Shown here in pieces: positions 908-29,712 of a stretch of DNA of 41,105 bases. A program made the translations under genes and the position numbers. Every line of letters begins with the position of its first letter. The stretch's first letter is position 1. The notes under the pieces were generated by a model that made no database searches, had not been told where the DNA came from, and was given only the letters and a program-made list of their open reading frames with translations. This stretch comes from Lachnoanaerobaculum sp. ICM7 (GTDB lineage Bacteria; Bacillota; Clostridia; Lachnospirales; Lachnospiraceae), in assembly GCF_000287675.1 (NCBI RefSeq), contig NZ_ALJL01000032.1:1-41105 (forward strand). The letters are read 5' to 3'.

Positions 908-949
908 AAAAGCTCTCTTGTGGCAGCAGTATAAGAAGGGGATGTATAT

Positions 950-1425: not shown

Positions 1426-1453
1426 AAAATAATTTAGGGAGAACATTAAGATA

Positions 1454-1945: not shown

Positions 1946-1958
1946 GTTAAATGCTTAA

Positions 1959-2605: not shown

Positions 2606-2640
2606 ATTGTTTTTGAAGAACTTGAGGAGACGTAAAATCG

Positions 2641-3105
2641 ATGGCAACAGCAATGAGACTTTTAAGAAGTGAAATTCACCCTGATCATACAAGAATAGAA
2701 GAGATAATAAATATTTTTATATCGTTAGGTTTTACAAGATTTAGTATATATGATGAAACAGATGTTTATATGTTAACAATAGCTATGCCGATTACTGATG
2801 ATGAGTTGGTTAATTCGGAGAACTTGAAAAAGAGTACAATTATTTATATCGATTTAATAGAGAACAATGAGGAAATGTTTTATTGTCCCAAAACTTGTAA
2901 AAAATATTACTCGTATTTGTTTTTTGAGAATGTTAGCTCTAGAGAAAGAATAATATTTGATTTTTTACATAGATATTTTGAACTTTATCCGGATGATATA
3001 TTTTGGGACTGTGATAAGTTTTTTTATACTAAAAAATACATAGATAAAATATATTCAAAAACTTATGATCCTAACTGGTTATATATCAGTCCGGATAGTT
3101 TTTAA
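2641..3105 (+). CDS. Type-B small protein, copy 2 (putative immunity protein)
   Basis: Encodes 154 residues, the same length as the type-B gene at 443, with clear alignment over the whole length but perhaps only about a third identical residues. Signature segments are IEEIINIFISLGFTRFSIYD near the N-terminus, then RERIIFDFLHRYFELYPDDIF, YTKKYIDKIYSK and W-L-Y-I-S-P-D-S-F. The SD GAGGAGA lies 10 bases before the ATG. It is the first gene of the second B-C-A block. No signal peptide or membrane helix. Function not recognised. Confidence 0.7.
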   Translation: MATAMRLLRSEIHPDHTRIEEIINIFISLGFTRFSIYDETDVYMLTIAMPITDDELVNSENLKKSTIIYIDLIENNEEMFYCPKTCKKYYSYLFFENVSSRERIIFDFLHRYFELYPDDIFWDCDKFFYTKKYIDKIYSKTYDPNWLYISPDSF

Positions 3106-3122
3106 GTTAGAGGGAGCAGATA

Positions 3123-3596
3123 ATGATATATGAGGGTAGAATATTAAATAAAAGCTGTATAGAGAAGAGATTTATTGCGTATAAATTTGTAGATATATTG
3201 AGAGAACTTGGATATATTAAATATATAGTTCTTGAAAAGGAAACTACAGACCTGATATACATAAAGAAAGGAAATGATAAATTACTTTTTGATAAGAATG
3301 ATACTTTATCTTTATTAAATGTATATGCATATAAAGAATGTAAAGAGATTCCGACTAAAAAAGCAGAGAGTGCAGGACTTGAAACTTTTTTCAGATTTAC
3401 AGATATACTTGGCAGAGAGCTGGTTATACTTGAAATATTACATAAATATATGGAAAAGTATAGCGATTCTATATTTTATATAGATAACGGACTTTATTTT
3501 ACAAAGCAAGATATAGATAGAATTTATAATTTAAAAGAACCTGATGCAGAGTGGATTTATAAAAATCCGGATACATATAAAAAGAAGAGTAAATAA
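3123..3596 (+). CDS. Type-C small protein, intact copy (putative immunity protein)
   Basis: Encodes 157 residues. It starts MIYEGRIL, has a helix FVDILRELGYIKYIVLE, an acidic middle, and the array signature in a variant form: GRELVILEILHKYMEKY, FTKQDIDRIYNL, then EPDAEWIYKNPDTYKKKSK. It is the intact reference for the split gene at 950-1425. The SD AGGGAG stands 7 bases before the ATG, and the gene follows the type-B gene by 17 bases, so the two are co-transcribed. Function not recognised. Confidence 0.72.
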   Translation: MIYEGRILNKSCIEKRFIAYKFVDILRELGYIKYIVLEKETTDLIYIKKGNDKLLFDKNDTLSLLNVYAYKECKEIPTKKAESAGLETFFRFTDILGRELVILEILHKYMEKYSDSIFYIDNGLYFTKQDIDRIYNLKEPDAEWIYKNPDTYKKKSK

Positions 3597-3626
3597 TAAA
3601 ATATTAATTTAGGGAGTACTAAGATA

Positions 3627-4118
3627 ATGGGAGTACCGGCATCGTTATTTAGAAAAGGTGAATATCCAACAGAAAAAGACTTGGATATAATAATTGATAT
3701 ATTTACAAAGATGAAGTTTTATGCAGGTGGTAAAGAAAAAGATAAATTAATTACAGGCGAAAGTTTTAGTATTAGTTTTATCAATGATCATTGGAGCAGA
3801 AAATGGGATGATGACGAGTATCAATGGGATTCACTGGATGATAATGATAACATTATAATTTATTTTTATCCGAAGCCGAAGGAATCACATGAATACTATA
3901 TTCCAAGTATGGGAGAAACAGTGCCAAGTTATATTATTTTTGAGGATATATCAGGTAGAGAAAGACTTTTGTTGGAATTCTTTCATAGATATTTTAAGCT
4001 TTTTCCTGAGGATGTATTTATGGAGGAGTACTTTTATACAAAGGATGATATAGATAAGTTATATGCAAAACTACCGTGGAATGAAATATGGGTATTTGAG
4101 GATCCTAAAACTTTTTAA
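3627..4118 (+). CDS. Type-A small protein, copy 2 (putative immunity protein)
   Basis: Encodes 163 residues, nearly the same as the 1454 copy, including the bases around the start (TTTAGGGAG...AAGATAATGGGAGTA). It ends the second B-C-A block. Segments are as in the other A copies: an N-terminal helix from residue 14, an acidic W-D-D-D-E-Y-Q-W-D region near 60-70, a strand at I-I-I-Y-F-Y, then the FFHRYFKLFPEDVF and YTKDDIDKLYAK signature and EDPKTF at the end. The near identity of the A copies against the divergence of the B and C pairs suggests recent copying or gene conversion of A. Confidence 0.75.
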   Translation: MGVPASLFRKGEYPTEKDLDIIIDIFTKMKFYAGGKEKDKLITGESFSISFINDHWSRKWDDDEYQWDSLDDNDNIIIYFYPKPKESHEYYIPSMGETVPSYIIFEDISGRERLLLEFFHRYFKLFPEDVFMEEYFYTKDDIDKLYAKLPWNEIWVFEDPKTF

Positions 4119-15442: not shown

Positions 15443-15456
15443 TTGACACGTTTCAA
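15443..15456 (+). promoter_or_regulatory. LacI-type operator over the -35 box
   Basis: TTGACACGTTTCAA is a 7+7 palindrome with a central CG (15449-15450) and one mismatch, the form bound by many LacI-family repressors. It covers the -35 box. A weaker second palindrome, TTTAAACGTTATAA (15457-15470), is centred on CG 14 bases downstream and covers most of the -10 box. The likely ligand is the LacI/solute-binding fusion encoded at 21292, inside the same operon. Confidence 0.7.
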
Positions 15457-15514: not shown

Positions 15515-16840
15515 ATGAGAAAAGTGTTGGCAGCTGCATTATCGGTAGCAATGGGAATGTCACTGGTAGCTTGTGGTGGTGGATCATCTAAGCCTGCAGA
15601 GGAGACTACAAAGTCTGCAGAATCCGTTGCAGATAATGCAAAGAGTGGTGATGCAAATCTAAGTGCAGACATTGAGTATTGGTCAAGTTGGAGTGAAACT
15701 GAAGCTCAAGCAGATGCATTAAGGGAAGCAGCAGATGAATTTATGAAGGCTAATCCGGGTGTCAAAATTAATTTTACATTTAACGGTCGTGATAACAGAA
15801 ACCTGGTTGGCTCAGCAGTATCGGCAGGAACAAAGGTTACAATGATGGATGCTAATGCTGATAATATTAAGTCTATGTGGTCTGAAATGACAATGGATCT
15901 TACACCATATTTTGAAGAGTCATACGAATCAACCGGTGGAGAGAAGTATGTTGATAGAATTATGCCGAGTATGTCAGGATTGTCCGCAAAACTGTTTGAT
16001 GGAAAGTATTCATATTTTCCTTACGCACCGCAGGCATTTATGATTTTCTGCAATAAAAACATATTTGATGATTGCGGGATAACAAAATATCCTGAAACCT
16101 GGACAGAATTTATGGATGCTTGTGAAAAAATCAAAGCAAAAGGATATACTCCGGTTACTACAGACAGCAATTATGCTACAAGCTGGGTTGGATATTATAT
16201 GAGCCGCTTAATGGGTAATGATGAGGTCGCAAAATTGAGCAATGATCCGTCAGCATGGAGTAATCCGAAGGTGTTAGAGGCGGCTAAAGCTATTGAGGAT
16301 ATGGCAAAGAAGGGATACTTTGATCCGGTTATAGAAACCAATACATATCCGAATGCACAGCAAAGTATGGTTATAAATGAAAAAATAGCAATGTACATCA
16401 ATGGAACATGGCTTCCTAACGAAGTAAAAGACTCAACACCGGATGATTTCAAATGGGGATCTTTCGCATTCCCAACTGTAGAAGGCGGAGTTGATGATCA
16501 GACATCAGGATGCTACAGCAGCTATGGTATTGCAATCAATAAGGATGCAACAGAGGAAGAAGCTAAGGCGGCAGCAGCTTTTGGAGTTTATGTAACTACA
16601 GCGTTTGACCAGAAATTTTCAGATATGGCAAATGCTATTCCGGTTGGTGTTGACGGTGTATGGCCGGATAGTTTAAAAGATGCACAACAAGTTATATCAA
16701 AATATACAAACAGATATCCGTCACAGACAGCGATTATCTTAAATAGTAACAGTAAGCAGATTATTGCGGATGCTTGTTTAAAGCTGATGGGTGGAAGCAT
16801 TACAGCAGAAGAATTTGTTGATATGGCATCCAAGTTCTAG
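15515..16840 (+). CDS. ABC sugar-type solute-binding lipoprotein 1
   Basis: Captures the substrate outside the membrane and hands it to the permease pair that follows. Encodes 441 residues with a lipoprotein signal peptide: basic start, hydrophobic core, L-V-A-C lipobox with the lipid cysteine at 20, then a Ser/Glu-rich linker to about 50. The mature part follows the family 1 (MalE/UgpB/MsmE) plan: I-E-Y-W-S-S-W-S-E-T at the first strand and N-P-G-V-K-I-N-F-T-F-N-G-R-D. A central P-Y-A-P-Q-A-F-M-I-F-C-N-K segment and I-A-M-Y-I-N-G-T-W-L-P follow. It resembles the second lipoprotein at 26472 along its whole length. The ligand is unknown. Confidence 0.92.
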   Translation: MRKVLAAALSVAMGMSLVACGGGSSKPAEETTKSAESVADNAKSGDANLSADIEYWSSWSETEAQADALREAADEFMKANPGVKINFTFNGRDNRNLVGSAVSAGTKVTMMDANADNIKSMWSEMTMDLTPYFEESYESTGGEKYVDRIMPSMSGLSAKLFDGKYSYFPYAPQAFMIFCNKNIFDDCGITKYPETWTEFMDACEKIKAKGYTPVTTDSNYATSWVGYYMSRLMGNDEVAKLSNDPSAWSNPKVLEAAKAIEDMAKKGYFDPVIETNTYPNAQQSMVINEKIAMYINGTWLPNEVKDSTPDDFKWGSFAFPTVEGGVDDQTSGCYSSYGIAINKDATEEEAKAAAAFGVYVTTAFDQKFSDMANAIPVGVDGVWPDSLKDAQQVISKYTNRYPSQTAIILNSNSKQIIADACLKLMGGSITAEEFVDMASKF

Positions 16841-16867
16841 TATATATCAGTGATAAAATCATTGCTA

Positions 16868-16896
16868 AAATGTAAAGGCATTTTGCCTTTACATTT
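16868..16896 (+). terminator. Hairpin between lipoprotein 1 and its permease
   Basis: AAATGTAAAGGC (16868-16879) and GCCTTTACATTT (16885-16896) form a perfect 12-base stem with a T run at its end. It stands inside the operon, so it probably ends part of the transcripts and keeps the lipoprotein more abundant than the permeases. It may also protect the upstream mRNA. Confidence 0.75.
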
Positions 16897-16914
16897 TTTC
16901 ATAAGGAGGATTTT

Positions 16915-17808
16915 ATGAAGCAGACGAAAAGGTCGATTATTATATTTATGTTACCGGCCGTAGTACTTATGGTAGTTATATTTTTATATCCGACATTAAG
17001 AACTATTACTATGAGCTTGTTTAAGGTAAAGAGTGTTACTACTCCGTTAGTGGACTGGAAATTTGTCGGTTTTGGAAATTTTTTAAAGTTATTTAAAACA
17101 CCTTTATTTGTCAGATCCATGGTAAATATTCTTAAAATATGGATTTACAACGGTATTGCTACAATGGTTTTATCTATGTTGTTTGCACTGGCTTTTACAA
17201 AGGATATCCGATTTAAAAAGTTTTTTAGAACCATAGTTTACCTTCCAAATGTAATTGCAGCGATTGCAGTAGGTTATATGTGGTTACTGTATGTATACAA
17301 TAGCAGATTTGGATTACTTACAACTATGTTTGCAAAACTTGGATTAAAAGCTTTAGCAGATTATCAATGGTTAAATTCAGATCATATGTTTTTCTCGATG
17401 TGTATTGCAAATGTGTTCGGTAATGTAGGGTACTTTATGATGATGTTCATAGCCGGAATTGAAAAGATACCGAAAGATTACTTTGAAGCTGCATCATTAG
17501 AGGGAATCACAGGATTTCAACGCTTTAGACATATTATTTTCCCATTGACAAAAGGTGTTTTAAGAACTGCGATAGTGTTATGGACAACAAGGACTATGGG
17601 ATTCTTTGCCTTATCACAAGTTTTCTCCGGTGTAAATACATATACACCTATGTTATTTACATATCAGACTTTGTTTGGAACTGAAGTAGCATCAGAGTCG
17701 GTAAATGCAGGAATGGCTGCCGCTGCGGCAGTGCTTATGACAGTTATTGTAGTAATTGTGTCAATGATTTTAAATCATACAATTAAAGATGATAACTATG
17801 AGATATAG
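16915..17808 (+). CDS. ABC sugar permease 1a (MalF/UgpA type)
   Basis: Encodes 297 residues with about six membrane helices, the first at 9-29. The cytoplasmic EAA loop that contacts the ATPase is clear: E-A-A-S-L-E-G-I-T-G-F-Q-R-F-R-H-I-I-F-P-L, near residues 193-213. The ATG follows AAGGAGG. It forms the membrane channel together with the next gene. No ATP-binding subunit is encoded in this window, so a shared MsmK/UgpC-type ATPase from elsewhere is required. Confidence 0.92.
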   Translation: MKQTKRSIIIFMLPAVVLMVVIFLYPTLRTITMSLFKVKSVTTPLVDWKFVGFGNFLKLFKTPLFVRSMVNILKIWIYNGIATMVLSMLFALAFTKDIRFKKFFRTIVYLPNVIAAIAVGYMWLLYVYNSRFGLLTTMFAKLGLKALADYQWLNSDHMFFSMCIANVFGNVGYFMMMFIAGIEKIPKDYFEAASLEGITGFQRFRHIIFPLTKGVLRTAIVLWTTRTMGFFALSQVFSGVNTYTPMLFTYQTLFGTEVASESVNAGMAAAAAVLMTVIVVIVSMILNHTIKDDNYEI

Positions 17809-17819
17809 GAGGTGAAGTG

Positions 17820-18680
17820 ATGAAGAAAAATAAAAGAAAGTCCGATTTCAGATGGAGAAAAGAAGTTACTTTATTACCTAGTTATATTATTGGAATCATT
17901 TGGGCCTTTTTTACAATATTTATGATTGGCTGGATTATTGCAGCTTCACTGTCATCAACTAAAGAGGTTTTTACAGGAAATGTATTATCTACCGGGTTAC
18001 ATTTTGAAAATTATACTAAAGCTTTCTTTAGAAATAAAGCATTGATGAATCTTTTAAATTCAGTGATTTATACAGTGCCTTCATGTATTCTTACAATTAT
18101 AGTGAGCGCACCTGCAGCATATTGCCTTACCAGGTTTAAATTTAAATTTAACGGTTTGATTAAAAAGAGTATTATTACAGCTCTTGGAATTCCGGGTATT
18201 ATGATTGTTATGCCGCTGTTTTCAATTGTCAGTACATTAAAATTGAGTGGAACACATTTGACTTTGATCTTTATATATACGGCAACTTCAGTACCATACA
18301 CAACTTTCTTTCTAATGGCATTTTTTCAAGGAATATCTGATGTTTATGAAGAGGCTGCGGCAATAGACGGATGTGGTCCGATACAATGCTTTTGGAGAAT
18401 TATGTTTCCATTGGCACAACCTGCGATTATGACAGTAACAATTTTTAACTTTATAAGCAGATGGAATGAATATTTTATGGCATTGATTTTTGCCAATAAA
18501 TCTGAACTTCGCCCTGTAGGTGTAGGTCTTTATCAGACTGTACAATCAATGATGCAATCGGGTGATTGGGCCGGAATGTTTGCATCTGTAGTAATTGTAT
18601 TTATGCCAACTGTAATTATATACCTTTTCCTTTCCGATAAAATTGTGGCAGGAGTAACATCAGGTGGTGTCAAGGGTTAA
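17820..18680 (+). CDS. ABC sugar permease 1b (MalG/UgpE type)
   Basis: Encodes 286 residues with about six membrane helices. Its EAA loop reads E-E-A-A-A-I-D-G-C-G-P-I-Q-C-F-W-R-I-M-F-P-L, the form typical of MalG-side subunits, and the end is V-A-G-V-T-S-G-G-V-K-G. I chose the ATG at 17820, seven bases after AGGAGG, over the GTG at 17817, which stands too close. It pairs with the permease at 16915, whose stop is 11 bases upstream. Confidence 0.92.
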   Translation: MKKNKRKSDFRWRKEVTLLPSYIIGIIWAFFTIFMIGWIIAASLSSTKEVFTGNVLSTGLHFENYTKAFFRNKALMNLLNSVIYTVPSCILTIIVSAPAAYCLTRFKFKFNGLIKKSIITALGIPGIMIVMPLFSIVSTLKLSGTHLTLIFIYTATSVPYTTFFLMAFFQGISDVYEEAAAIDGCGPIQCFWRIMFPLAQPAIMTVTIFNFISRWNEYFMALIFANKSELRPVGVGLYQTVQSMMQSGDWAGMFASVVIVFMPTVIIYLFLSDKIVAGVTSGGVKG

Positions 18681-18704
18681 TTTAATAATAATTGAGGTGG
18701 CAAA

Positions 18705-19676
18705 ATGCATTATAGTAATGTAAAATTTGGAATTTTTACTGATTTACATCTGGATATTATGCATGATGGAAGAATACGACTGGATACATTCATAGAACAA
18801 ATGAAGAAAGAAGATGTTGACTTTATCATTCAACTGGGAGATTTTTGTTACCCTGAGGATACAAGTAAATGCCTATGTTCAGAAAAGAATATGCCTATAA
18901 ATCTTAAAAATGCAATGAGAGTACCGGCTGATGTACCGAAAATTGAACTGTTGGAGAAATTTAATAAGTTTTTGAAACCACATTATCATGTACTTGGAAA
19001 TCATGAGTTCGATTTTTGCTCAAAGGAACAGGCGATGAAGCTCTATGGAATGGATAAGAGATATTACTCTTTCATATGTAAAGGTTGGAAATTCTTAGTG
19101 GTTGACGGTAATAATTTTAAAACAAAGACCGGAGAACTTAAAGATTATTATTATGGGGATTATTTTGATTCTGAAGATTTACCATATATTGATTCTGAAC
19201 AAATGGATTGGATTGAAAAAGAACTGTTGGAATCTGATATGCCTATAATAATATTTTCACATCAACCTCTAAATGAAAGCCCTAGGGGTATAAAAAATGC
19301 TGATGAACTTTCAAATTTATTCATAAAGGCCAATAGAAGCGGTAAAAAAGTTAGACTTTGTATAAACGGACATACACATGTAGATAGATTGGAATGTGAT
19401 AAAGGAGTGTATTACTATACTCTAAACAGTATGTCAAATCATTGGATCGGAACAAAGTTTGCAAAACATAGATTTTCAGATGAAATAGAAGAGGCTTTCC
19501 CAAATCTTCAGTATACATTTCCATATAAGAGCCCGTTGTATGCAGTAGTAGAATTAAATAGCAAAGGGGCTTATATTAAAGGGAAATCGGGAGAGTTTAT
19601 AAAGCCAAGTCCGTTGGATATGGGGTGTGATGAGGATTTGAGCGCATCTATAAAAGATAGAGAAATCTTATGGTGA
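18705..19676 (+). CDS. Calcineurin-like metallophosphoesterase
   Basis: Encodes 323 residues without a signal peptide, so it is cytoplasmic. All five family blocks are visible: D13-x-H15 (F-T-D-L-H-L-D), G-D46 (I-I-Q-L-G-D-F), G-N99-H100-E (V-L-G-N-H-E-F-D), S-H-Q-P, and N-G-H-T-H-V-D-R. These bind two metal ions and hydrolyse phosphomonoesters or diesters; the substrate cannot be read from the sequence. The SD GAGGTGG is before the ATG and it is 24 bases after the permease gene. Its place between permeases and GDPD suggests that it acts on the imported compound. Confidence 0.88.
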   Translation: MHYSNVKFGIFTDLHLDIMHDGRIRLDTFIEQMKKEDVDFIIQLGDFCYPEDTSKCLCSEKNMPINLKNAMRVPADVPKIELLEKFNKFLKPHYHVLGNHEFDFCSKEQAMKLYGMDKRYYSFICKGWKFLVVDGNNFKTKTGELKDYYYGDYFDSEDLPYIDSEQMDWIEKELLESDMPIIIFSHQPLNESPRGIKNADELSNLFIKANRSGKKVRLCINGHTHVDRLECDKGVYYYTLNSMSNHWIGTKFAKHRFSDEIEEAFPNLQYTFPYKSPLYAVVELNSKGAYIKGKSGEFIKPSPLDMGCDEDLSASIKDREILW

Positions 19677-19716
19677 TTTATATAAAAATTTTATTATAGG
19701 AAAATAAGGAGATAAA

Positions 19717-20406
19717 ATGGAATTAAAATTCACCGGAATAGGAGCGGCATATTACCCGGTACTGGGAAGTAATTGTGCATTTTTTGAGCATGATAACTGT
19801 CTATACTTAATAGACTGTGGAGAGAGTACTTTTAAAGCTATGTTTTCACGTAATGAAATATATGATTATGATAATATAGTTGTACTGCTTACACACCTTC
19901 ATGCTGATCATATAGGTAGTCTGGGATCTTTTCTTTCTTTTTGTAAAAATGTACTTGATAAAAAAGTATTATTGGCAGCTGAGGAAGATACTATTGTAAA
20001 TATATTGGATCAAAGTGGAGTTCACACTGATAAATATAATTTCACAACAGACTTCAAAGAATGCGAAGCGGACGGATTATCTATTTATGTGAAGAGAGAA
20101 AGCCATGCTACAGATATGTTATGTTGCGGATTTGTTTTTGAATGTAATGGAGAAAAAATATACTACAGTGGTGATACAAGCAATGTTCCGTCAGATATTC
20201 TAAACGCCTTTCTATCAGGAGAAATAAAGACTATGTATCAAGAATGTACATTCCTGGATACAGACAGTACATCACATTATTCTCTTAAGAAATTATGTGA
20301 GATTATTCCGTATGAAGAAAGACAACGTGTTTATTGCATGCATTTAGGAGATGATATTGAAGATGATATTGTTAAAGCAGGATTTCGTGTTCCGAAAATA
20401 GTATAA
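19717..20406 (+). CDS. Metallo-beta-lactamase-fold hydrolase
   Basis: Encodes 229 residues of the MBL superfamily, RNase Z/PhnP-like in outline. The zinc motif is T-H60-L-H62-A-D64-H65-I-G-S. Later ligands are probably E-S-H-A-T-D near 127, Y-S-G-D-T-S-N near 150, and Y-C-M-H-L-G-D near 207. RNase Z itself is longer and has a flexible arm that is missing here, so tRNA processing is unlikely. A cyclic-phosphodiesterase or other phosphodiesterase activity would fit the neighbours but is inference. The SD is AAGGAGA. Confidence 0.85.
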   Translation: MELKFTGIGAAYYPVLGSNCAFFEHDNCLYLIDCGESTFKAMFSRNEIYDYDNIVVLLTHLHADHIGSLGSFLSFCKNVLDKKVLLAAEEDTIVNILDQSGVHTDKYNFTTDFKECEADGLSIYVKRESHATDMLCCGFVFECNGEKIYYSGDTSNVPSDILNAFLSGEIKTMYQECTFLDTDSTSHYSLKKLCEIIPYEERQRVYCMHLGDDIEDDIVKAGFRVPKIV

Positions 20407-20431
20407 ATTGGAATGCCGGAGGTAAGTTAGA

Positions 20432-21262
20432 ATGAAAAATACACTTCATTTATACAATAATGATAATGTACAGGTTGTGGCTCATCGTGGAGCGGCAGGT
20501 TCCAATATTCCCTGTAATACAATACCTGCATTTGATATAGCTCTAAAAGGCGGTGCTTCAATTTTAGAGATGGATCTTTTTAAAAGTACTGATGGTAAAA
20601 TATTTATTTTTCATACAGGTAAAGAACCGTATCAACTTAATAAAAACATTGATCTTACAAAACTGGACAGTGAAGAGATAAAAAAACTTCGACTTATCAA
20701 TGTTGATTTTTATCCTACACAATGGGGAATAAATTCTTTTGATGACGTATTAGAGCATTTTAAAGGTCGTTGTATTTTAAATCTTGATCGTATTGGGGAC
20801 TGTATACCCGATGTCATAAAAGCAGTTGAAAGGCATAACATGAAAGATCAGGTTTTACTTAAACATGCCCCGATTCCAAGTGTTTTAAAGATAATTGAAG
20901 ATGTGGCACATGATTATATGTTTATGCCGATATATATGGAAGAAGATAATGCTTCTGAAATAATTGAAAAAATGAATATAAATTATATCGGTGCTGAACT
21001 TGTGTTTAAAACAGAAGAGTCCCCCGTGATACAACCTGAATATATAGAGAGTATGAAGAAGAGGGGCAAGACTTTATGGGGGAATGCAGTATTATACAAT
21101 TATAAAGTACCTCTTTCAGCCGGGCATACGGATGATGTCTCAATGATTGATGATCCGGATAAAGGATGGGGGTGGTTAGTTGACCATGGCTTTGATATAA
21201 TTCAAACTGATTGGACATATCAATGCTGTAAGTATTTAAAGGATAGAGGAATAAACCATTAA
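20432..21262 (+). CDS. Glycerophosphodiester phosphodiesterase family protein
   Basis: Encodes 276 residues of the GDPD (TIM-barrel) family, cytoplasmic. Family members split glycerophosphodiesters into an alcohol and glycerol 3-phosphate. H18-R19-G (V-A-H-R-G-A-A-G), E46-x-D48 (I-L-E-M-D-L) and H61 are in place. Two usual residues differ: the ENT motif reads CNT, and the Asp after H61 is missing (H-T-G instead of H-D-G). The third metal ligand, usually the Glu in N-I-E-I-K, appears as Asp in L-N-L-D-R. So it may use a relative of the common substrate. GGAGGT precedes the ATG. Confidence 0.85.
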   Translation: MKNTLHLYNNDNVQVVAHRGAAGSNIPCNTIPAFDIALKGGASILEMDLFKSTDGKIFIFHTGKEPYQLNKNIDLTKLDSEEIKKLRLINVDFYPTQWGINSFDDVLEHFKGRCILNLDRIGDCIPDVIKAVERHNMKDQVLLKHAPIPSVLKIIEDVAHDYMFMPIYMEEDNASEIIEKMNINYIGAELVFKTEESPVIQPEYIESMKKRGKTLWGNAVLYNYKVPLSAGHTDDVSMIDDPDKGWGWLVDHGFDIIQTDWTYQCCKYLKDRGINH

Positions 21263-21291
21263 TACTTACAAATCAGATTGGAGTATAGAAA

Positions 21292-23475
21292 ATGGCAACT
21301 ATAAAAGATATAGCCAAGGTGGCAAAAGTATCGCAGGCAACCGTTTCAAATGTTTTAAACGGGAAAGATAATGTAAGCAGTGATAAAATACGTAGAGTAA
21401 TGAAAGCAGTTGAGGATATGGGCTATGTTATAAATGAAAAGGCTCAAAACCTCAGAAAGGGTACTGCAAAGATTTTAGCAGTTGTAGTTCCAAATTTATA
21501 TGATAAAACATACATAGATTTTTTTTCCAGTTTTAAAGATTATGCGGAAAGAAAAGAATATACAGTAGATTTATATATTACAAATGACGATGATGATTAT
21601 GAGAGGAAGCAGATTCAGAAAATTAAATCCAGAATGACGGAGGGAGTAGCTGTTTTTACATCCATATCAGATGGAAGTGAGGCTTACTATGAAGCAGGAT
21701 TTTCAAATGAAGATGTTGTTTTTATATCTAATAAACAGCCATATAATTGTAAGTTTATCGGATATGATAATATAGAGGCCGGAAAAGAGATTGCAAAAAA
21801 AATATTGCAAGGCAATTATGAAAAAGTCGCTCTTTTAACAGGACCTCTTACATATTCAGGGAAAATGGACTTTCGTAATTCATTTTTAGAGAGTATTGTA
21901 AAATCAGATAAGATCTCAGAAGTATATGAGAGAGTTACTACTGAGCAGTGCAAATATCAGAATGTAGTGAGAGTTTTTACTCATATGCAACCTGATGCAG
22001 TCGTTACTGACAGTATATCATTGGCTCAAACGGTAAAAAGTGTATATCAAAACTTCTATAGAAATAAGCCGGTAGATATCGTTTCACTTTCTCCTGTATA
22101 TACTATTCCTGAAAGAGATATTATTAGGTATGAAATAGACTATAGAAAAATGGGTATAGATGCCGCTTCATATCTAATAAACCGTAACTGGGAAAATAGA
22201 AATGAACTGATTATAGAATCAAAAGGGTTTTCAGATTGGCCAAAAATAAATTCAAAAAATGAAGAAAGTATATTGAATATTTTATCTATTGCAAGCCCTA
22301 CTACACGAGCACTTAAGACAGTGGTAAATTTGTATGAATTTAATACCGGAATAAAGATACGAATAACAGAATCAGACTATGAAAGTATGTATAAACTGGT
22401 AAAAAACCGGGGGGCGGAACTTCCATATGATATAGTTCGTATGGATAAAGATTGGTTTCCGGTTTTAGCTAAATCAGTATTTGAGCCACTTACAAATATA
22501 GAATCCAATATCGGTAACAGCTTAGACGGTTTTTTGCCTAATGCACTAAAAAATTATTCTTATCTTGATGGTGATATTTATGCATTACCGGGAACACCAA
22601 GTATTCAATTACTGTTTTATAGAAAAGATTTGTTCGAGGATACAAGATTAAAAAGATTATACTATGAGATGTACAAGAAATCATTAGAGGTTCCAAAGAC
22701 CTTTGAAGAGTATAATCGTATTGCATATTTTTTTACAAATGAATTTAACAATGAATCTCCGATTAAGTATGGTTGCAGCTTTACATCAGGAGAGCCCGGA
22801 ACTGTCGGTGTTGAATTTTTGATGAGATATTTTAGTCATTCAAAAAGATTATTTGATGAAAATGGAAATATTCTTTTAAATACTGAGGCAGCAAGAGATG
22901 CATTAAGAGAAACGAAAGACTCTTGGAATTATTCCTCAAAAATAGAGCACAATTGGTGGACAGATTCAGCTCAGGAGTTTGCGGAAGGTGATACGGCAAT
23001 GGGTATTTATATGATAAATCATGTTAGTGGATTTGTCGGACCTGACTCAAAGATTAGAGGGAAAATAGGGTGGTCTATCGTACCCGGAGATAATCCTATG
23101 CTTGGTGGTAGTGTTCTTGGTATTTCTAAATATTCAAAAAATAAGGATATTGCTTTAGACTTTTTGAAATGGATTAGTCGAGATGATATAGGTACAGCTA
23201 CAGTATTACTTGGCGGTATGTCTGCAAAAAAATCGGCATATGATGACACTGAGGTAAATGATGCTTACCCATGGCTTGATTATGCGAAAAAATGTTTTGA
23301 AAATGTTCAGACCAACTCCTATCCGATAGTAGATGGAGATAATATTGGATTAAAAGAGTTGCAGAATTTATTAGGTGTGGCAGTAAAAAAAGGTATAATG
23401 GAGAATTTAGATATTGATGAAATACTTGAAGCTGCTATGACTGATTATAAAAATTTAAAAAAGAAAAAACTTTGA
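21292..23475 (+). CDS. LacI repressor fused to a cytoplasmic solute-binding domain
   Basis: Encodes 727 residues, about twice a normal LacI protein. Order: a LacI helix-turn-helix and hinge (1-60; ATIKDIAKVAKVSQATVSNV, then GKDNVSS and A-Q-N-L-R-K-G-T), a LacI periplasmic-binding-like sensor (about 61-320), and then a second ligand-binding domain (about 325-727) of the family 1 ABC solute-binding type (Y-A-L-P-G-T-P-S-I-Q-L-L-F-Y-R-K-D-L-F-E-D, G-D-T-A-M-G-I-Y-M, G-K-I-G-W-S-I-V-P-G). There is no signal peptide, so the second domain stays in the cytoplasm as a sensor. I infer that it controls the operator at 15443. The SD (GGAG) is weak. It is the seventh gene of operon 1. Confidence 0.9.
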   Translation: MATIKDIAKVAKVSQATVSNVLNGKDNVSSDKIRRVMKAVEDMGYVINEKAQNLRKGTAKILAVVVPNLYDKTYIDFFSSFKDYAERKEYTVDLYITNDDDDYERKQIQKIKSRMTEGVAVFTSISDGSEAYYEAGFSNEDVVFISNKQPYNCKFIGYDNIEAGKEIAKKILQGNYEKVALLTGPLTYSGKMDFRNSFLESIVKSDKISEVYERVTTEQCKYQNVVRVFTHMQPDAVVTDSISLAQTVKSVYQNFYRNKPVDIVSLSPVYTIPERDIIRYEIDYRKMGIDAASYLINRNWENRNELIIESKGFSDWPKINSKNEESILNILSIASPTTRALKTVVNLYEFNTGIKIRITESDYESMYKLVKNRGAELPYDIVRMDKDWFPVLAKSVFEPLTNIESNIGNSLDGFLPNALKNYSYLDGDIYALPGTPSIQLLFYRKDLFEDTRLKRLYYEMYKKSLEVPKTFEEYNRIAYFFTNEFNNESPIKYGCSFTSGEPGTVGVEFLMRYFSHSKRLFDENGNILLNTEAARDALRETKDSWNYSSKIEHNWWTDSAQEFAEGDTAMGIYMINHVSGFVGPDSKIRGKIGWSIVPGDNPMLGGSVLGISKYSKNKDIALDFLKWISRDDIGTATVLLGGMSAKKSAYDDTEVNDAYPWLDYAKKCFENVQTNSYPIVDGDNIGLKELQNLLGVAVKKGIMENLDIDEILEAAMTDYKNLKKKKL

Positions 23476-23494
23476 CAGATAGAGGAGGCTTTAA

Positions 23495-24556
23495 ATGTCG
23501 GATTTTCCTTATAAATCAAGCAAATATAGATATACAGCAATAAGATTTATTAAAAGTAAAAAAGGTATATTTGGAATACCGAAGATTAATATAAGTGCAG
23601 ATTTTGAATGTGAGATTACAAAAGAAAACGGTTTATACTACGAAACGGACGGGGAAATTGTAATTTATATAAAGCATTTTATCTTAAAAGATGCTTGCTT
23701 GATTTCTATAGACGTAGAGGACAGTGCAGAATATGAAATAAAACATATATTATGTGAAGGCAAATATATAGCATTTGATCACAGTAATAACAAATATATA
23801 TTTCAAATTGAAATTAGTGGACTTCTTGGTCCGACAAGAACATTATATGCACATAGTATTTTAAGAGAAGACGGCATTACTCTTAGAGTTGAAGAGAACG
23901 ATATTGGAAGGTGTGCGGGAAAATATGATAAAGATACATATCCGCAAACTCAAATCGATGCTTCGGTTCACTATACATTTGCGGCAAGAGAAGTCTTAAG
24001 GCATATGGGTATAGGAAAATATTTGCATGACAATCATCTCGGATATATATTGCTTCTTGGATTTGAAACTTGTAATGAGTTACACACTGATTATCCACCG
24101 CATTGGCATTTGATATTCAGATGGCCATATTTTTGTGGCTCACAGGCACCTCATATATACATTGATAAAGAAGGCAAGATGGAGTCAAATGTAACTTATA
24201 TTGACGGAATAAGTGGAGTATGCAGAAAGTATCAGACATTAGAATGGTGCAAGATGGTTGATATGTACGGTGCGGATGTAATTGCTTTTAGACTGGTAGA
24301 AGATGGAGGTATGGAGCTTACTTCTCCAGGTGGAAATACCTATAAAATTGCCCCTTATATTAGGGAAGACGGTGTAAAAGTATATTGTGATGAAAGGTAT
24401 ATTGGTAATATTACTGTAAAAAATGACACTGATAACGGACAGATTAAGTTATTATGGAATAACATCGATTGTATTCAAGATTCTTATAAAGAGATTATCG
24501 AATATGATCAATATACGGGAAACATCAAAAAAGTTGAATGTATCGATAGTATATAA
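23495..24556 (+). CDS. Unrecognised family with HxDYPPHWH motif, paralogue 1
   Basis: Encodes 353 residues with no signal peptide or membrane helix. Residues 20-140 look like a beta sandwich of alternating strands. A helical stretch (A-A-R-E-V-L-R-H-M) follows, then G-Y-I-L-L-L-G-F-E-T, NELHTDYPPHWHL (194-206), and G-S-Q-A-P-H-I-Y. The His/Asp cluster could bind a metal or form an active site. It aligns with the protein at 25303 throughout, and the motif is nearly the same in both. The SD GAGGAGG is before the ATG. I do not know the family. Its place suggests an enzyme or binding protein for the imported substrate. Confidence 0.6.
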   Translation: MSDFPYKSSKYRYTAIRFIKSKKGIFGIPKINISADFECEITKENGLYYETDGEIVIYIKHFILKDACLISIDVEDSAEYEIKHILCEGKYIAFDHSNNKYIFQIEISGLLGPTRTLYAHSILREDGITLRVEENDIGRCAGKYDKDTYPQTQIDASVHYTFAAREVLRHMGIGKYLHDNHLGYILLLGFETCNELHTDYPPHWHLIFRWPYFCGSQAPHIYIDKEGKMESNVTYIDGISGVCRKYQTLEWCKMVDMYGADVIAFRLVEDGGMELTSPGGNTYKIAPYIREDGVKVYCDERYIGNITVKNDTDNGQIKLLWNNIDCIQDSYKEIIEYDQYTGNIKKVECIDSI

Positions 24557-24573
24557 ATATAAGGAGATGATAA

Positions 24574-25251
24574 ATGGAAAGGTATGTAGTGAATGACAGT
24601 ATATTTTTATTTCAGCTTATATGTGCCGGACTTTGTGGTACAGCTTTAGGAGTGGAACGACAGAGTAGAATGAAGTCTGCCGGAGTAAGAACACATTTCA
24701 TAGTATCCGTAGCATCTGCACTTATGATGATTGTATCAAAATACGGTTTTTTAGATGTTATCTCGATTGAAGGTGCAAGTGTGGATATATCCAGAGTTGC
24801 AGCAGGAATTATATCAGGTATAGGTATACTTGGAGGAGGATTGATTTTCATCAGCAAACAAGGGCTTGTTCGAGGTATGACAACTGCTGCCGGAATATGG
24901 ATGACAGTAGGCATTGGTATGGCTATAGGTGCAAGAATGTATATACTTGGTTTTGAAGGTACAATCCTTATACTTCTTATGCAGTGTTTATTCCATAGAA
25001 AACTCGAAATACTAAAAGATCCTTTACGAGCAAAGGTAATGTTTTTGGTTGGAGACAGAAAAGAAGATGTAGAAACAGTAGTTCAAAAGCTTGAGGATAT
25101 TGGTATTGAAGTAAGTATGATAAAGGTTGAAAGAAAGGGAGAAAAAAACTTTCAGATGAAATGTGAAACTGTGCTTCCAAGAAATATGGAAAGAGACGAT
25201 TTTACAGAAAAAATTGTGGGAATAGAAAATTTATTATCTTATGAGGTTTAA
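24574..25251 (+). CDS. MgtC/SapB family membrane protein
   Basis: Encodes 225 residues. The N-terminal part has four or more membrane helices and the MgtC signature: A-G-L-C-G-T-A-L-G-V-E-R-Q, K-S-A-G-V-R-T-H, G-I-G-I-L-G-G-G-L-I-F and R-G-M-T-T-A-A-G-I-W. The C-terminal 75 residues form a soluble ACT-like domain. In pathogens MgtC proteins help growth in low magnesium and modulate ATP synthase; in most Firmicutes the role is unsettled. It sits between the two HxDYPPHWH paralogues, in the same direction, with AAGGAGATGAT before the ATG, and so is part of operon 1. Confidence 0.9.
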   Translation: MERYVVNDSIFLFQLICAGLCGTALGVERQSRMKSAGVRTHFIVSVASALMMIVSKYGFLDVISIEGASVDISRVAAGIISGIGILGGGLIFISKQGLVRGMTTAAGIWMTVGIGMAIGARMYILGFEGTILILLMQCLFHRKLEILKDPLRAKVMFLVGDRKEDVETVVQKLEDIGIEVSMIKVERKGEKNFQMKCETVLPRNMERDDFTEKIVGIENLLSYEV

Positions 25252-25302
25252 ACCTCATATTTAGATAATTACAATGTAAATAGATATAGAATGGTGGGAG
25301 AA

Positions 25303-26373
25303 ATGATTTCTTTTAATGATGTATATCTTAATAATTCAATTAGGAAAACAGCAATACGTATAATAAAAAAATGTCCCGGTATATATGGGATGATTAAAGT
25401 GGGTATAAAGGCAAATTTTGAAGTTGGAATTTCAAATGAACCTAATTTATGCTATGAAGTACCAAATGAATTTGTTTTTTATATTGAACATGAAAAAAAA
25501 TATGATAAAGGGGATGTACATGTTTCGTTTGAACTTAAAAACGAATTAGATATAGAAGCAATATTGGTAGAAAAAGATTACATACAGTTTGAAAAAAATG
25601 GAAATCAAATATTATTTAAATTTGATATTAGTGGGTTTACAGGAAGTACTACAACGCTTAGTATACATACTCGGATTGAAGAGCCGGGTTTAAAAATTAG
25701 ATTAGAACATAATCATATTGGAAGAAAAGCGGGAATGTACAGAAATATCAATTATCCCGGAACGCAGATTATTGCCGCACACCATTATATAATGGGTATG
25801 AGAGAAATTATAAGGATGCTAAATTTGCCATCATATCTAGCAAATAATAATTTAGGATATATGTATATTTTGGGGTTTGAAACAAATAATGAAATTCATA
25901 CTGATTATCCTCCACATTGGCATCTTATATATCGTTGGGAAACATTTGTCGGTTCTCAAGCTCCTCACTTATATTTAGGAGAAAATGGAGAAACATTATA
26001 TAATAAATGTTATATCGACGGTATAGAAGGTGTTTGTAGAACTTTTGAAAATGGAGAATGGTGTAAGTTTGTTGACTATTTAGGAACGGATGTATGTGCT
26101 TTGTGTGTTAAAGATGATGGCGTTTTTGTAACTAAACCATATGGCGATGTCTACCATATGAGTAATTTTGAAGAAAATAAGGTTGTGATTAAAAAAAATG
26201 ATGTAAAAATTGGGGAAATAGAAGTAGCAGATGATGTTAAAAAAGGAATATATGAAATAAAATGGACAAAGTTATCCGGTATAGAAACACCTGGGAGTTA
26301 TGTTCAAAAAATAATATATGATCCGTTAACAGGTGTATTTTGTGAAAGTCATGTACACAATTTTGGTTTATAA
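25303..26373 (+). CDS. Unrecognised family with HxDYPPHWH motif, paralogue 2
   Basis: Encodes 356 residues from the ATG at 25303; an in-frame ATG at 25291 adds four residues. Neither start has an ideal ribosome site (GGGAG is only 2 bases before 25303), but 25303 gives a length closer to paralogue 1. The same plan is seen: a beta-rich N-terminal half, then M-Y-I-L-G-F-E-T-N, NEIHTDYPPHWHL (196-208), W-x-x-F-V-G-S-Q-A-P-H-L-Y and Y-I-D-G-I-E-G-V-C-R-T. The two copies agree best around this block and least at the C-terminal ends. Function unknown. It is the last gene before the second ABC cassette. Confidence 0.58.
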   Translation: MISFNDVYLNNSIRKTAIRIIKKCPGIYGMIKVGIKANFEVGISNEPNLCYEVPNEFVFYIEHEKKYDKGDVHVSFELKNELDIEAILVEKDYIQFEKNGNQILFKFDISGFTGSTTTLSIHTRIEEPGLKIRLEHNHIGRKAGMYRNINYPGTQIIAAHHYIMGMREIIRMLNLPSYLANNNLGYMYILGFETNNEIHTDYPPHWHLIYRWETFVGSQAPHLYLGENGETLYNKCYIDGIEGVCRTFENGEWCKFVDYLGTDVCALCVKDDGVFVTKPYGDVYHMSNFEENKVVIKKNDVKIGEIEVADDVKKGIYEIKWTKLSGIETPGSYVQKIIYDPLTGVFCESHVHNFGL

Positions 26374-26471: not shown

Positions 26472-27848
26472 ATGAAGAAGGTTGTAAATTTATTTTCGAC
26501 AGTTGCATTATCTCTATGCTTTTTGTGTGCATGTGGTGGGAACAGTGCGACAACAAGTGGAGGTGATGGTTCTGTAAAATCGGGAAGTGGAAATGAGAGC
26601 TCTGAAAACGCTACTCCGGAAGTCAAGCAAGCAGATGCAGATAGCAAATTAAACGCAGACATAGTATATTGGTCGTCATATACAGAGAGTTCTAATTATG
26701 GTCAAAGTATTAAAGCGGCAGCAGATGCATTTATGAAGGAGAATCCAGGAGTAAAGATTTCAATTTCTTTCCAGGGAACTGATATTTCATCTACACTTAC
26801 TCCGGCACTTCAGGCAGGTAATAATATAACAATGTTTGAGGCAAATAGCGATAATGTTGTTCGCCTATGGAAAGACTATCTAATGGATTTGGGTGAGTTT
26901 TACGAAAAAACTTATCCTCAAACAGGTGGAAAGTCTTATGCTGACAGTATTCTCCCTGCGTATGAAAATCTGGCAAAGACACAAGGAGATGGGAAATATG
27001 TATACTTTCCTTATACTCCACAGTTCTTAAATGTATGGTATAACAAAGATATTTTTGAGGAATGTGGCATAACCGAAAAACCAAAAACTTGGGATGAAAT
27101 GATGGAAGTATGCGCTACGCTTAAAAAGAATGGTTATACTCCATTTACTTCTGATCAAAATCATATTGATTATAATTTGAGTCTTTATTTGGAACGTCTT
27201 TTAGGTGCTGAGGGAACTAATGAGTTAGCGAATGGTGATGGTTCAGCATGGGATAATCCGGAGGTTTTAAAAGCTGTAAAGAAATTCGAGGATGCTGCAA
27301 GTAAGGGGTATTGGGCAGAGAATATTATGACAGTTGTTACTCCGGAAGCACAGCAAGAGATGGTTCTTGATAAGAAAATTGCTATGTATGTATGTGGTTC
27401 TTGGATGCCTAATAATGTACGTGAATCAGCAGGGGATGATTTTAGATGGGGTAGCTTTACATATCCACTTGTTGAGAATGGTGCTGATGATGGCTCTTCT
27501 CTATGTTATGGATGTTATGGTATAGCAATAAATAAAAATGCTACAGCTGAAGAAGCTGAGGCTTGTGCAGCTTTTGCTACATATTTAACACTTGGTGAAT
27601 GGGGAGATTATATGGTTAAGAATTGTAATGCAATCCCTATTACTAATGATCCTAATGTTAAATGGCCGAAGATGATTGCTGACGCTGAGCATATTTATGA
27701 TGGAATTACTAATAGGTGGCCTGCACATGGACATATGAGAACTAATGGTGATTTTTTACCTGTTTTTCAGTCTGCATGTACTAAGCTTTATGGTGGTAAA
27801 ATGACAGCAGAAGAATTTATTGCTGAATGTAAAGCGTATTTTAAGTAA
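26472..27848 (+). CDS. ABC sugar-type solute-binding lipoprotein 2
   Basis: Encodes 458 residues with a lipoprotein signal (lipobox L-C-A-C, lipid cysteine 21) and a Gly/Ser-rich linker to about 55. The mature part matches lipoprotein 1: I-V-Y-W-S-S-Y-T-E-S, A-A-A-D-A-F-M-K-E-N-P-G-V-K-I, P-Y-T-P-Q-F-L-N-V-W-Y-N-K-D, K-I-A-M-Y-V-C-G-S-W-M-P-N and a C-terminal Y-G-G-K-M-T-A-E-E-F. The linker and several loops differ, so it may bind a related but different ligand. The ATG follows AAGGAGG. It starts the second cassette, probably from its own promoter or by read-through from operon 1. Confidence 0.92.
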   Translation: MKKVVNLFSTVALSLCFLCACGGNSATTSGGDGSVKSGSGNESSENATPEVKQADADSKLNADIVYWSSYTESSNYGQSIKAAADAFMKENPGVKISISFQGTDISSTLTPALQAGNNITMFEANSDNVVRLWKDYLMDLGEFYEKTYPQTGGKSYADSILPAYENLAKTQGDGKYVYFPYTPQFLNVWYNKDIFEECGITEKPKTWDEMMEVCATLKKNGYTPFTSDQNHIDYNLSLYLERLLGAEGTNELANGDGSAWDNPEVLKAVKKFEDAASKGYWAENIMTVVTPEAQQEMVLDKKIAMYVCGSWMPNNVRESAGDDFRWGSFTYPLVENGADDGSSLCYGCYGIAINKNATAEEAEACAAFATYLTLGEWGDYMVKNCNAIPITNDPNVKWPKMIADAEHIYDGITNRWPAHGHMRTNGDFLPVFQSACTKLYGGKMTAEEFIAECKAYFK

Positions 27849-27876
27849 AGCACACATAGACTGTTAATTATTTAAA

Positions 27877-27914
27877 ATAAAAGTTGGTATCTAATTTTAG
27901 GTACCAACTTTTAT
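27877..27914 (+). terminator. Hairpin between lipoprotein 2 and its permease
   Basis: ATAAAAGTTGGTA (27877-27889) and TACCAACTTTTAT (27902-27914) form a perfect 13-base stem. The T run is inside the stem. It has the same position as the hairpin in cassette 1 but a different sequence, so it probably serves partial termination or mRNA protection. Confidence 0.65.
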
Positions 27915-27948
27915 AGAATATGAATTAATTGTATATAGGAAGTGAGAG

Positions 27949-28842
27949 GTGATTAGATTGAGACAAAAAAAAACCACAATATTTATATTTATTGCTCCTG
28001 CTATAATTCCTTTTCTTGCTTTTTTTTGTTATCCGGTTCTAAGAACTTTTTTGATGAGCTTTTTTGATGTTGAGCAAATTAGTAGTAAGATTGTGACTTG
28101 GAAGTTCGTAGGTCTAGATAATTATTTTACATTAAAGGCAACAAGTTTTCCTAATTCATTGATGATGTTATTTAAAGTTTGGCTCTGCTGTGGTATTGTT
28201 GTTTTTATACTTTCATTATTATTTGCAACTATGTTAACATCAGGAGTATATGGAAAAGGCTTTTTTCGCTCAATGTTATATTTGACAAATGTTATTCCAC
28301 AAATTGCACTTGGATATATGTGGACATTATATGTATTTAGTTCACGCTTTGGAATGCTAAAAAAGCTATTTAATTCTGTTGGACTAGAAAAGGCTGCAAG
28401 TTTTGCTTGGACATCTCCCGATAATATGTTTATTTCTATGTGTATTGCGTATGTATTTAGTTGTACAGGATATTTTATGCTTCAATATATGGCCGCAATT
28501 GAAGCTATTCCTAAAAGTCTCTATGAGGCAGCTGAAATAGATGGTGCTACAAAGTTTTCACAATTTTTGAATATTACTTTTCCTCTAATTCGCAATACGT
28601 TAGTTACTTCATTAACTTTGTGGACTAGTCGTGTATGTGCTTTCTTTGCCCTGTCAAGAGTTTTTATATCTTCAAAGACGGTTTCACCATTGATGTATAT
28701 ATATAATGTTTTATTTGGTACAGATTCAAGTAATACGGCAGTTGGAGTAGGAGCAGCAGCATCAGTTATAGTTGCACTCATTGTTGTAGCAGTATTTATG
28801 ATTTCCAATCTTATTCCAAAGAATAAGGATATTGAACTTTAG
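27949..28842 (+). CDS. ABC sugar permease 2a (MalF/UgpA type)
   Basis: Encodes 297 residues, the same length as the permease at 16915 and similar throughout. About six membrane helices are present, with the EAA loop E-A-A-E-I-D-G-A-T-K-F-S-Q-F-L-N-I-T-F-P-L. The start is GTG at 27949, eight bases after AGGA; the first ATG is far inside, and a TTG at 27958 is less well placed. It works with the next gene as the channel of the second importer. Confidence 0.9.
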   Translation: MIRLRQKKTTIFIFIAPAIIPFLAFFCYPVLRTFLMSFFDVEQISSKIVTWKFVGLDNYFTLKATSFPNSLMMLFKVWLCCGIVVFILSLLFATMLTSGVYGKGFFRSMLYLTNVIPQIALGYMWTLYVFSSRFGMLKKLFNSVGLEKAASFAWTSPDNMFISMCIAYVFSCTGYFMLQYMAAIEAIPKSLYEAAEIDGATKFSQFLNITFPLIRNTLVTSLTLWTSRVCAFFALSRVFISSKTVSPLMYIYNVLFGTDSSNTAVGVGAAASVIVALIVVAVFMISNLIPKNKDIEL

Positions 28843-28851
28843 GAGGGGATT

Positions 28852-29712
28852 ATGAATAATAATATAAAGACGAATAATATACGACTACGTCAACAAGTAA
28901 GGTTAATTCCGGGATATATCCTGCTTATACTTTGGTGTTTATTTATAGTTGTAATGTTAGGTTGGATAGTTATAGCAAGTTTATCAACAACTAAAGAAAT
29001 ATTTTCAGATAATCTACTCAGAAGCGGACCACATTGGGATAATTATACACATGTAATAAAAAATGGACATTTAGTTACTGCATTTTTGAATTCACTTTTA
29101 TATAGCGCATCATCAGTATTCTTTAGTATATTGATTTGTGCTCCGGCCGCATATGGGCTGGCAAGATTTAAATTTAAATTTAGTGAAGCGATAAAGCGTT
29201 TGTTAGTAATAGGTTTAGGTGTGCCGGGAGTTATGATTATAATGCCGCTATTTTCGCTTGTAAGTGCACTAAATGTAAGTAATTCAAAAATTACACTCAT
29301 AGTAATTTATGTTGTTACATCTATTCCGTTCTCTACATTTTATCTTCTTCCGGCCTTTACTGATATATCAGATAGTTATGAAGAGGCGGCTGCAATTGAT
29401 GGATGCGGCCCACTACGAACTTTTTGGACCATTGTGTTTCCACTTGCCGGTAATAGTATTACAACGTTGGTAATTTTCCAGTTTATTGGAAAATGGAATG
29501 AATATTTTATGGCACTTATATTTGCCGGAAGTACAGAAAATATGTCGTTAAGTGTTGCACTTTATCAACTTATCGTTGCTATGACAAGAGAAGGAGGATG
29601 GAGTGGAATGTTTGCTGCTGTTACATTTGTTTCAGCACCTACGATAATTATTTACATTTTATTGTCTAAAAGATTAATTGGAGGAGCTACAGCCGGAGGA
29701 TTAAAAGGCTAA
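28852..29712 (+). CDS. ABC sugar permease 2b (MalG/UgpE type)
   Basis: Encodes 286 residues, with about six membrane helices. The EAA loop is E-E-A-A-A-I-D-G-C-G-P-L-R-T-F-W-T-I-V-F-P-L, nearly the same as in permease 1b, and the end is I-G-G-A-T-A-G-G-L-K-G. AGGAGGGG lies before the ATG, and the gene is 9 bases after permease 2a. As in cassette 1, no ATPase gene follows. Confidence 0.92.
   Translation: MNNNIKTNNIRLRQQVRLIPGYILLILWCLFIVVMLGWIVIASLSTTKEIFSDNLLRSGPHWDNYTHVIKNGHLVTAFLNSLLYSASSVFFSILICAPAAYGLARFKFKFSEAIKRLLVIGLGVPGVMIIMPLFSLVSALNVSNSKITLIVIYVVTSIPFSTFYLLPAFTDISDSYEEAAAIDGCGPLRTFWTIVFPLAGNSITTLVIFQFIGKWNEYFMALIFAGSTENMSLSVALYQLIVAMTREGGWSGMFAAVTFVSAPTIIIYILLSKRLIGGATAGGLKG

Follow-up and report, generated by a model that had tools for sequence, protein, structure and literature searches.

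What does a repressor of the LacI family gain from a complete ABC-type solute-binding domain attached behind its own sensor core, and which of the two domains reads the inducer? The question is raised by a gene of Lachnoanaerobaculum sp. ICM7 (21292..23475, forward strand) lying in a stretch of 41,105 nucleotides, referred to here as the window. A first-pass annotation of this DNA described a LacI repressor fused to an unexported solute-binding protein (SBP) domain, and proposed that the two sugar-binding domains may sense two ligands.

Architecture of the fusion gene

The fusion itself is confirmed. A single intact gene of 727 codons encodes a protein of 727 aa in which a LacI helix-turn-helix (HTH) with its hinge (residues 1-58, 21292..21465), a divergent LacI core (residues 59-322, 21466..22257) and a full SBP_bac_1-type solute-binding domain (residues 327-727, 22270..23472) follow one another, all on the forward strand. 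Both outer domains score above their Pfam cut-offs (PF00356, 51.8 bits against 27, for the HTH; SBP_bac_1, 82.9 bits against 26, for the SBP domain). The core falls below Pfam cut-offs; phmmer identifies the region following the HTH as type I PBP-like through its similarity to chains of the LacI family, among them 3jy6 (276 aa; residues 58-230, E 1.7e-4). The Pfam matches of the SBP half are SBP_bac_1 and SBP_bac_8, and no SBP_bac_5 domain of the SgrR type was found after the HTH of the window protein. Neither an export signal nor a lipobox was found on this protein, which begins with its HTH and reaches a maximum hydropathy of 1.04 over 19 residues; judged by its sequence, the SBP domain of the regulator is predicted to be cytoplasmic.

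A frame error or faulty assembly that had joined two genes in this strain alone could mimic such an architecture. Among the 331 confirmed relatives from a species collection, the best 80 were analysed: 77 of these loci have a full-length fusion ORF, and of the rest two are truncated by contig ends and one is broken into two frames. A 728-codon LacI frame is likewise found in five of the six genomes of the genus. Because the fusion is conserved to this extent, a strain-specific join is refuted; we found no point in favour of an artefact and consider its probability negligible.

Distribution and inheritance of the fusion

The best 80 of the 331 relatives come from Bacillota (among them Lachnospiraceae, Oscillospiraceae and Paenibacillus), Spirochaetes (Spirochaetota), Calditrichales (Calditrichota), Proteus and others. 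Within the host's order, 16 of 392 genomes (counting the host itself) match with E values of 1e-30 or lower. The fusion also travels on plasmids, with 52 plasmid records matching at E 1e-20, 48 of them from Escherichia; it is carried by 46 of 5426 E. coli genomes, on plasmids in 44 and on the chromosome in two. Like the window protein, the E. coli copy has an SBP_bac_1 domain (63.6 bits) and no detected export signal, as the protein opens with a LacI HTH beginning at residue 3. Among the matches listed, "extracellular solute-binding protein" is nevertheless the name given to 18 of the 20 plasmid rows and to all 10 E. coli rows, a name under which automatic annotation conceals these regulators. 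Both E. coli copies whose records were read (L146:12001-14172 and L221:8001-10175) lie near insertion elements.

In a tree of SBP domains, 58 fused SBPs occupy one side of a branch with an SH-aLRT support of 99, with 32 free SBPs, including both receptor lipoproteins of the window, on the other. The rows of this tree were gathered by fusion-seeded and SBP-profile searches, by which unfused relatives could be missed, and near-duplicates (8 of 66 alignment rows and 7 named neighbour receptors) were removed. Trees of the LacI part and of the SBP domain have 23 supported splits in common (of 28 and 30, respectively) and none in conflict, which speaks against shuffling of the domains. As the fused SBPs form a separate branch and the two trees do not conflict, the fusion probably arose once and was then inherited whole. 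An SBP-only profile run over 398 genomes of the phylum, with at most four candidates scored per genome, recovered one further fusion beyond the window's own (398 bits, in a 796-codon frame); the remaining matches scored no higher than 236 bits, and their frames were no longer than 565 codons.

Gene neighbourhood

In the window, the genes from 15515 to 26373 are co-directional and closely spaced, and the fusion regulator therefore probably belongs to an operon under its own control. This forward-strand series opens with an SBP_bac_1 receptor lipoprotein of a CUT1-type ABC transporter (15515..16840) and its two permease genes (16915..18680, comprising 16915-17808 and 17817-18680), the latter named through a cluster relative (L070:12809-13723) that matches UgpA at E 1e-37. 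A calcineurin-like metallophosphoesterase (18705..19676; PF00149, 63.8 bits) comes next, followed by an MBL-fold hydrolase (19717..20406; PF12706, 52.7 bits) that sub-threshold NCBIfam matches liken remotely to RNase Z, PhnP and cyclic-nucleotide phosphodiesterases. A glycerophosphodiester-phosphodiesterase family protein (GDPD plus DUF4996, 20432..21262; PF16387, 87.8 bits; PF03009, 38.4 bits) directly precedes the fusion. Beyond it lie two copies of a rare unannotated family, 44% identical to each other (23495..24556 and 25291..26373), on either side of an MgtC/SapB family membrane protein (24574..25251) that clusters with L111:3324-3941, a PF02308 match.

The unannotated pair carries the motif HTDYPPHWH and gave no match in Pfam or NCBIfam. 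Its family was found in one of 246 genomes of the order, the window's own, and loci L057-L061 and L064 have relatives of the pair close to the fusion. A second receptor-permease-permease set is located directly downstream (26472-29712), its receptor 44% identical to that at 15515.

Comparison of the 80 best fusion loci with ordinary LacI loci of the same order (39 of 40 sampled, L202 being without a called LacI) reveals a distinctive set of partners. Within 7 kb of the fusion, MgtC was found at 33 loci, GDPD at 25, MBL-fold proteins of type a at 20 and type b at 14, a NupG-like MFS carrier at 13 and the metallophosphoesterase at 6, along with two permease types (48 and 29) and an ABC ATPase (32). 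Of these, ordinary LacI loci have the permease types at 19 and 17 of 39 loci, the ATPase at 11 and MgtC at one; GDPD, MBL, metallophosphoesterase and NupG-like MFS genes were found at none of the 39. After dereplication (16 of 80 loci removed), a phosphodiesterase-type gene is present within 7 kb at 34/64 fusion loci against 0/39 ordinary ones (Fisher p 9e-10, relatedness uncorrected), effect sizes that are approximate, given that the fusion loci also supplied the training set of the neighbour HMMs, that relatedness was removed only in part and that every control comes from Lachnospirales. The proportion is 21/33 for loci flanked by 6 kb or more on each side; many of the 30 loci (of 64) where the HMMs detect no such neighbour are on short contigs.

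The partners are exchangeable. GDPD and MBL genes often replace one another across fusion loci. MBL type a remotely resembles RNase Z and PhnP, and type b resembles PhnP, with every match under the curated cut-off. The transporter class varies as well, between CUT1, a PhnS-like ABC system, a NupG-like MFS carrier and RbsABC. The window and the phosphodiesterase-linked loci belong to clade A of the fusions. In clade B, four of seven rows were readable, and an RbsABC-type transporter is found in all four, RbsD in three and phosphodiesterase neighbours in none.

The simplest reading of these partners is a pathway of phosphodiester import followed by cytoplasmic cleavage. The claim that the fused domain and the receptor of the transporter belong to one class holds at the level of the superfamily only: the fused SBPs are a branch apart, and at the E. 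coli and Proteus loci the adjacent operon has an MFS carrier and lacks an ABC transporter. The tree, within the fusion-seeded and SBP-profile rows that it compares, and these MFS-only loci also lead us to reject the idea that the fused SBP is a copy of a local receptor.

A palindrome shared by fusion loci

Sites of the type TTGAMACGTKTCAA were found by a palindrome search of intergenic regions, and the predicted operator of the fusion family is WTTGNNACGTNNCAAW, an even CG-centred palindrome, which is the usual operator type of LacI regulators as described in PMC4052901. In the window, the predicted operator is TTGACACGTTTCAA (ATTGACACGTTTCAAT with flanks; 15443..15456, no strand assigned), 72 bp before the receptor gene; nowhere else does the window match TTGNNACGTNNCAA exactly or with one mismatch. 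The operator that the first-pass annotation had placed at 15443 gains support from the recurrence of its palindrome near fusions. No exact or one-mismatch copy was found at the second transporter set (26472-29712).

Exact matches to TTGNNACGTNNCAA occur within 8 kb at 47 of 79 fusion loci (51 sites, 43 of them called intergenic) and at none of 40 control loci. Removal of 14 of the 79 loci as duplicates leaves an exact operator near 41 of 65 fusion loci, with 45 sites where a first-order Markov model gives a mean of 0.6 and a maximum of 3 in 20 runs. At 21 of the other 24 loci a one-mismatch operator lies at most 500 bp upstream of the fusion gene; such a site is upstream of one in 39 control LacI genes. 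In E. coli, the site is 60 bp from the MBL gene of a divergent MBL-MFS-MgtC operon and is exact in L146. Locus L064 has three sites, one before a permease-adjacent gene, one between GDPD and the fusion, and one before its relative of the unannotated pair.

The common palindrome and the recurrent partners point to a phosphodiester-catabolic regulon present in gut and oral bacteria, in Spirochaetota and on E. coli plasmids.

Divergence of the LacI core

Among 19 Lachnospirales fusions, mean pairwise identity is 54% in the HTH and hinge (1-58), 20% in the core (59-320) and 30% in the SBP domain (330-727). In 2135 of 2145 sequence pairs, identity is higher over the SBP domain than over the LacI core, which makes the former the better conserved of the two. 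Alignment with the 39 ordinary LacI controls, after removal of near-duplicates (11 of 77 rows), shows that the fusions keep the HTH pattern of ordinary LacI (67 fusions against 39 controls) and lack three residues usual in the core. R at window position 194 is present in 32/39 controls and 0/67 fusion cores, D at 267 in 32/39 and 0/67, and D at 242, in a loosely aligned stretch where the window protein carries a D two residues earlier, in 34/39 and 0/67. The window protein has F194, I242 and S267. A more diverse alignment (A4) gives the same picture (R194, D242 and D267 in 0/66 rows), and the three residues are also missing from both E. coli copies examined. The counterparts of positions 194 and 267 in PurR are R196 and D275, which we take, with a numbering offset of +1, to be residues with a role in corepressor binding.

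The core has not been released from constraint. Most fusions share F194, Y280, Y284, P67 and E104, positions 194, 280 and 284 being conserved within clades and E104 and P67 invariant, and pN/pS values of 0.06-0.20 indicate purifying selection. Because of this conservation and selection, the core of the fusion may still bind something. At 45-55% HTH identity, core identity is 0.182 in the fusions against 0.220 in ordinary LacI, which is only suggestive of a faster evolving core at equal HTH identity, since no bin above 55% contains more than 7 control pairs.

The pocket of the SBP domain

One solved SBP, a receptor for alpha-glycosides presumably from Thermus, allows putative ligand-contact positions of the fused domain to be located. 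The titles of its PDB entries name mutants of R49, D118, W287 and R356. By alignment, these residues correspond to window positions 366, 437, 607 and approximately 675. At 437, 607, 383 and 576, the two fusion clades have fixed different residues: clade A (51 rows) has S in 46, G in 47, R in 50 and N in 48, respectively, clade B (7 rows) has S in one, G in none (W in all 7), R in none and N in none, a contrast that represents a single phylogenetic split. Position 366 is mostly hydrophobic across the fusion family; near 675 the window has N, clade B R in 7/7 and clade A R in 22/51. As positions equivalent to ligand contacts are fixed differently in the two clades, the pocket looks live and tuned, like that of a sensor.

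In the predicted structure, the SBP domain is part of a confident single-body model, and a fold search with this model returned a whole-domain SBP match, the 50 matches listed all being SBPs. Among solved SBPs, the closest to the fused domain are receptors for sugars, sulfosugars or polyols. The model has an rmsd of 2.3 to maltose-bound 6dtq and of 4.3 to apo 6dtr, so that the prediction is closer to the liganded form of MalE3; this is weak evidence, and predicted models lean to the closed state regardless of function.

A model of regulation and its alternatives

The reading we favour, at about even odds, is that the fusion protein is a repressor of a phosphodiester-uptake regulon in which inducer sensing has largely shifted to the cytoplasmic SBP domain. 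Points against it are the continuing constraint on the core, the family residues at 366 and near 675, the loci without phosphodiesterase-type neighbours, the clade B loci with RbsABC among them, and the non-phosphodiester ligands of the closest solved SBPs. In the cycle that we infer, in all its steps, from these data, the repressor would act by repression rather than activation: without ligand, a dimer would sit on the palindrome at 15443 through its HTH domains and keep expression low. As this palindrome precedes the transporter and phosphodiesterase operon that encodes the repressor, the latter would control its own level. The imported compound, possibly a phosphodiester, or a close derivative would bind to the C-terminal SBP domain in the cytoplasm, and closure of this Venus-flytrap would be transmitted through the LacI core and hinge to the DNA-binding domain, freeing the operator. 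Cytoplasmic enzymes of the GDPD and MBL types would consume the compound, and repression would return. The LacI core, its ordinary residues lost, would mainly dimerise and transmit. Storage or sequestration of ligand by the SBP domain, also proposed earlier, seems unlikely for a DNA-binding protein that is inherited as one unit and accompanied by a conserved operator.

A modified form of the two-ligand proposal would have the core bind a second, non-canonical effector in a redesigned pocket and the SBP domain the imported compound, with both signals integrated. It draws support from the clade-conserved positions 194, 280 and 284, the invariant E104 and P67 and the purifying selection on the core, and it is weakened by the absence of the three usual residues from 67 of 67 cores and by the core being the least conserved part of the fusion; we consider it rather unlikely, though deserving of serious weight. 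The SBP domain could also have ceased to bind ligand and serve only to stabilise or oligomerise the repressor, as the tetramerisation tail of LacI does. Its C-terminal placement and the confident single-body model would suit such a role, but ligand-contact-equivalent positions that are conserved within clades and differ between them, and, weakly, the greater proximity of the model to the liganded form, make it improbable.

Lastly, the SBP domain might dock from the cytoplasm on a protein of the regulon and report transport activity rather than free ligand. Transport genes are frequent near the fusion, but permease-type genes are also found at 19 of 39 ordinary LacI loci; moreover, the fusion stays while the transporter is swapped between classes, and the docking surface that a transporter offers to its SBP is the outer one. 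We regard this arrangement as very improbable, and return to the sensing of inducer by the SBP domain as the preferred reading.

Relation to known regulators

The fusion resembles LacI, PurR, CcpA and RbsR in its LacI HTH, its even CG-centred palindrome and its transport and catabolic neighbours. It differs from the LacI/GalR family in its extra SBP_bac_1 domain of about 400 residues, and in a core that is below Pfam cut-offs and without the usual R, D and D. PMC4052901 ascribes to LacI regulators two characteristic domains and a "rigid domain structure".

Recruitment of ABC receptor domains as cytoplasmic sensors is a principle already known. Btr/YbbB of Bacillus couples an AraC HTH to a siderophore-binding domain, an ABC receptor-type cytoplasmic sensor, and thus differs from the fusion in both its HTH and its siderophore-type receptor fold. 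SgrR and DsvR are not known to have a LacI HTH or a LacI core. Like the fusion, they are cytoplasmic regulators with an ABC solute-binding domain, here SBP_bac_5 rather than SBP_bac_1, and are described as HTH plus SBP_bac_5 one-component regulators (PMC13060122). The solved sugar and polyol receptors 5iai, MalE3 (6dtq), SmoF (7yzs) and TMBP (1eu8), which are 21-22% identical to the fused SBP, are secreted proteins, whereas the fused SBPs form their own clade (in a tree without these PDB proteins). Neither a LacI-SBP fusion nor such a regulon is described in the titles and abstract beginnings that searches of an open library for them brought up, and what is apparently new is the plan of LacI core plus SBP_bac_1 with the usual core residues lost, in a widespread and apparently unstudied family.

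We are tentatively inclined, somewhat short of an even judgement, to see here a multi-phylum branch of LacI whose core gave up sugar sensing, whose inducer is read by an appended Venus-flytrap, and which controls phosphodiester uptake and breakdown with an exchangeable transporter. LacI is the textbook allosteric repressor, and a second Venus-flytrap stacked on an altered first shows that sensing may move between domains; the branch would be a natural design for building sensors. Such a hand-over, if true, is testable in E. coli, where the same system is found on plasmids.

Other observations

An unrelated LacI architecture with tandem sensors (HTH, Peripla_BP_3 and Peripla_BP_4, as scanned in L215 and L218) is present in four further genomes of the genus and in a few elsewhere in the order, whereas the window's genome gave no match. 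Its frames of 671-717 codons include L215:2951-5026, L216:2514-4652, L217:2818-4968 and L218:1864-3909, and others are in L225, L226, L227 and L234. In the first core of eight such proteins, which exclude L224 and L233 because wrong ORFs had been taken there, D242 is absent from all and D267 is kept in two; position 194 is K in two, and in two the R is displaced by an alignment gap and may be present. As an independent case of residue loss this is mixed, and it was not used as support.

Rfam gave no matches over the window at gathering thresholds. Near the start of the window (443-4118), several similar ORFs of about 160 aa lie in tandem, five of which cluster by BLAST. The L064 relative of the unannotated pair has the operator upstream.
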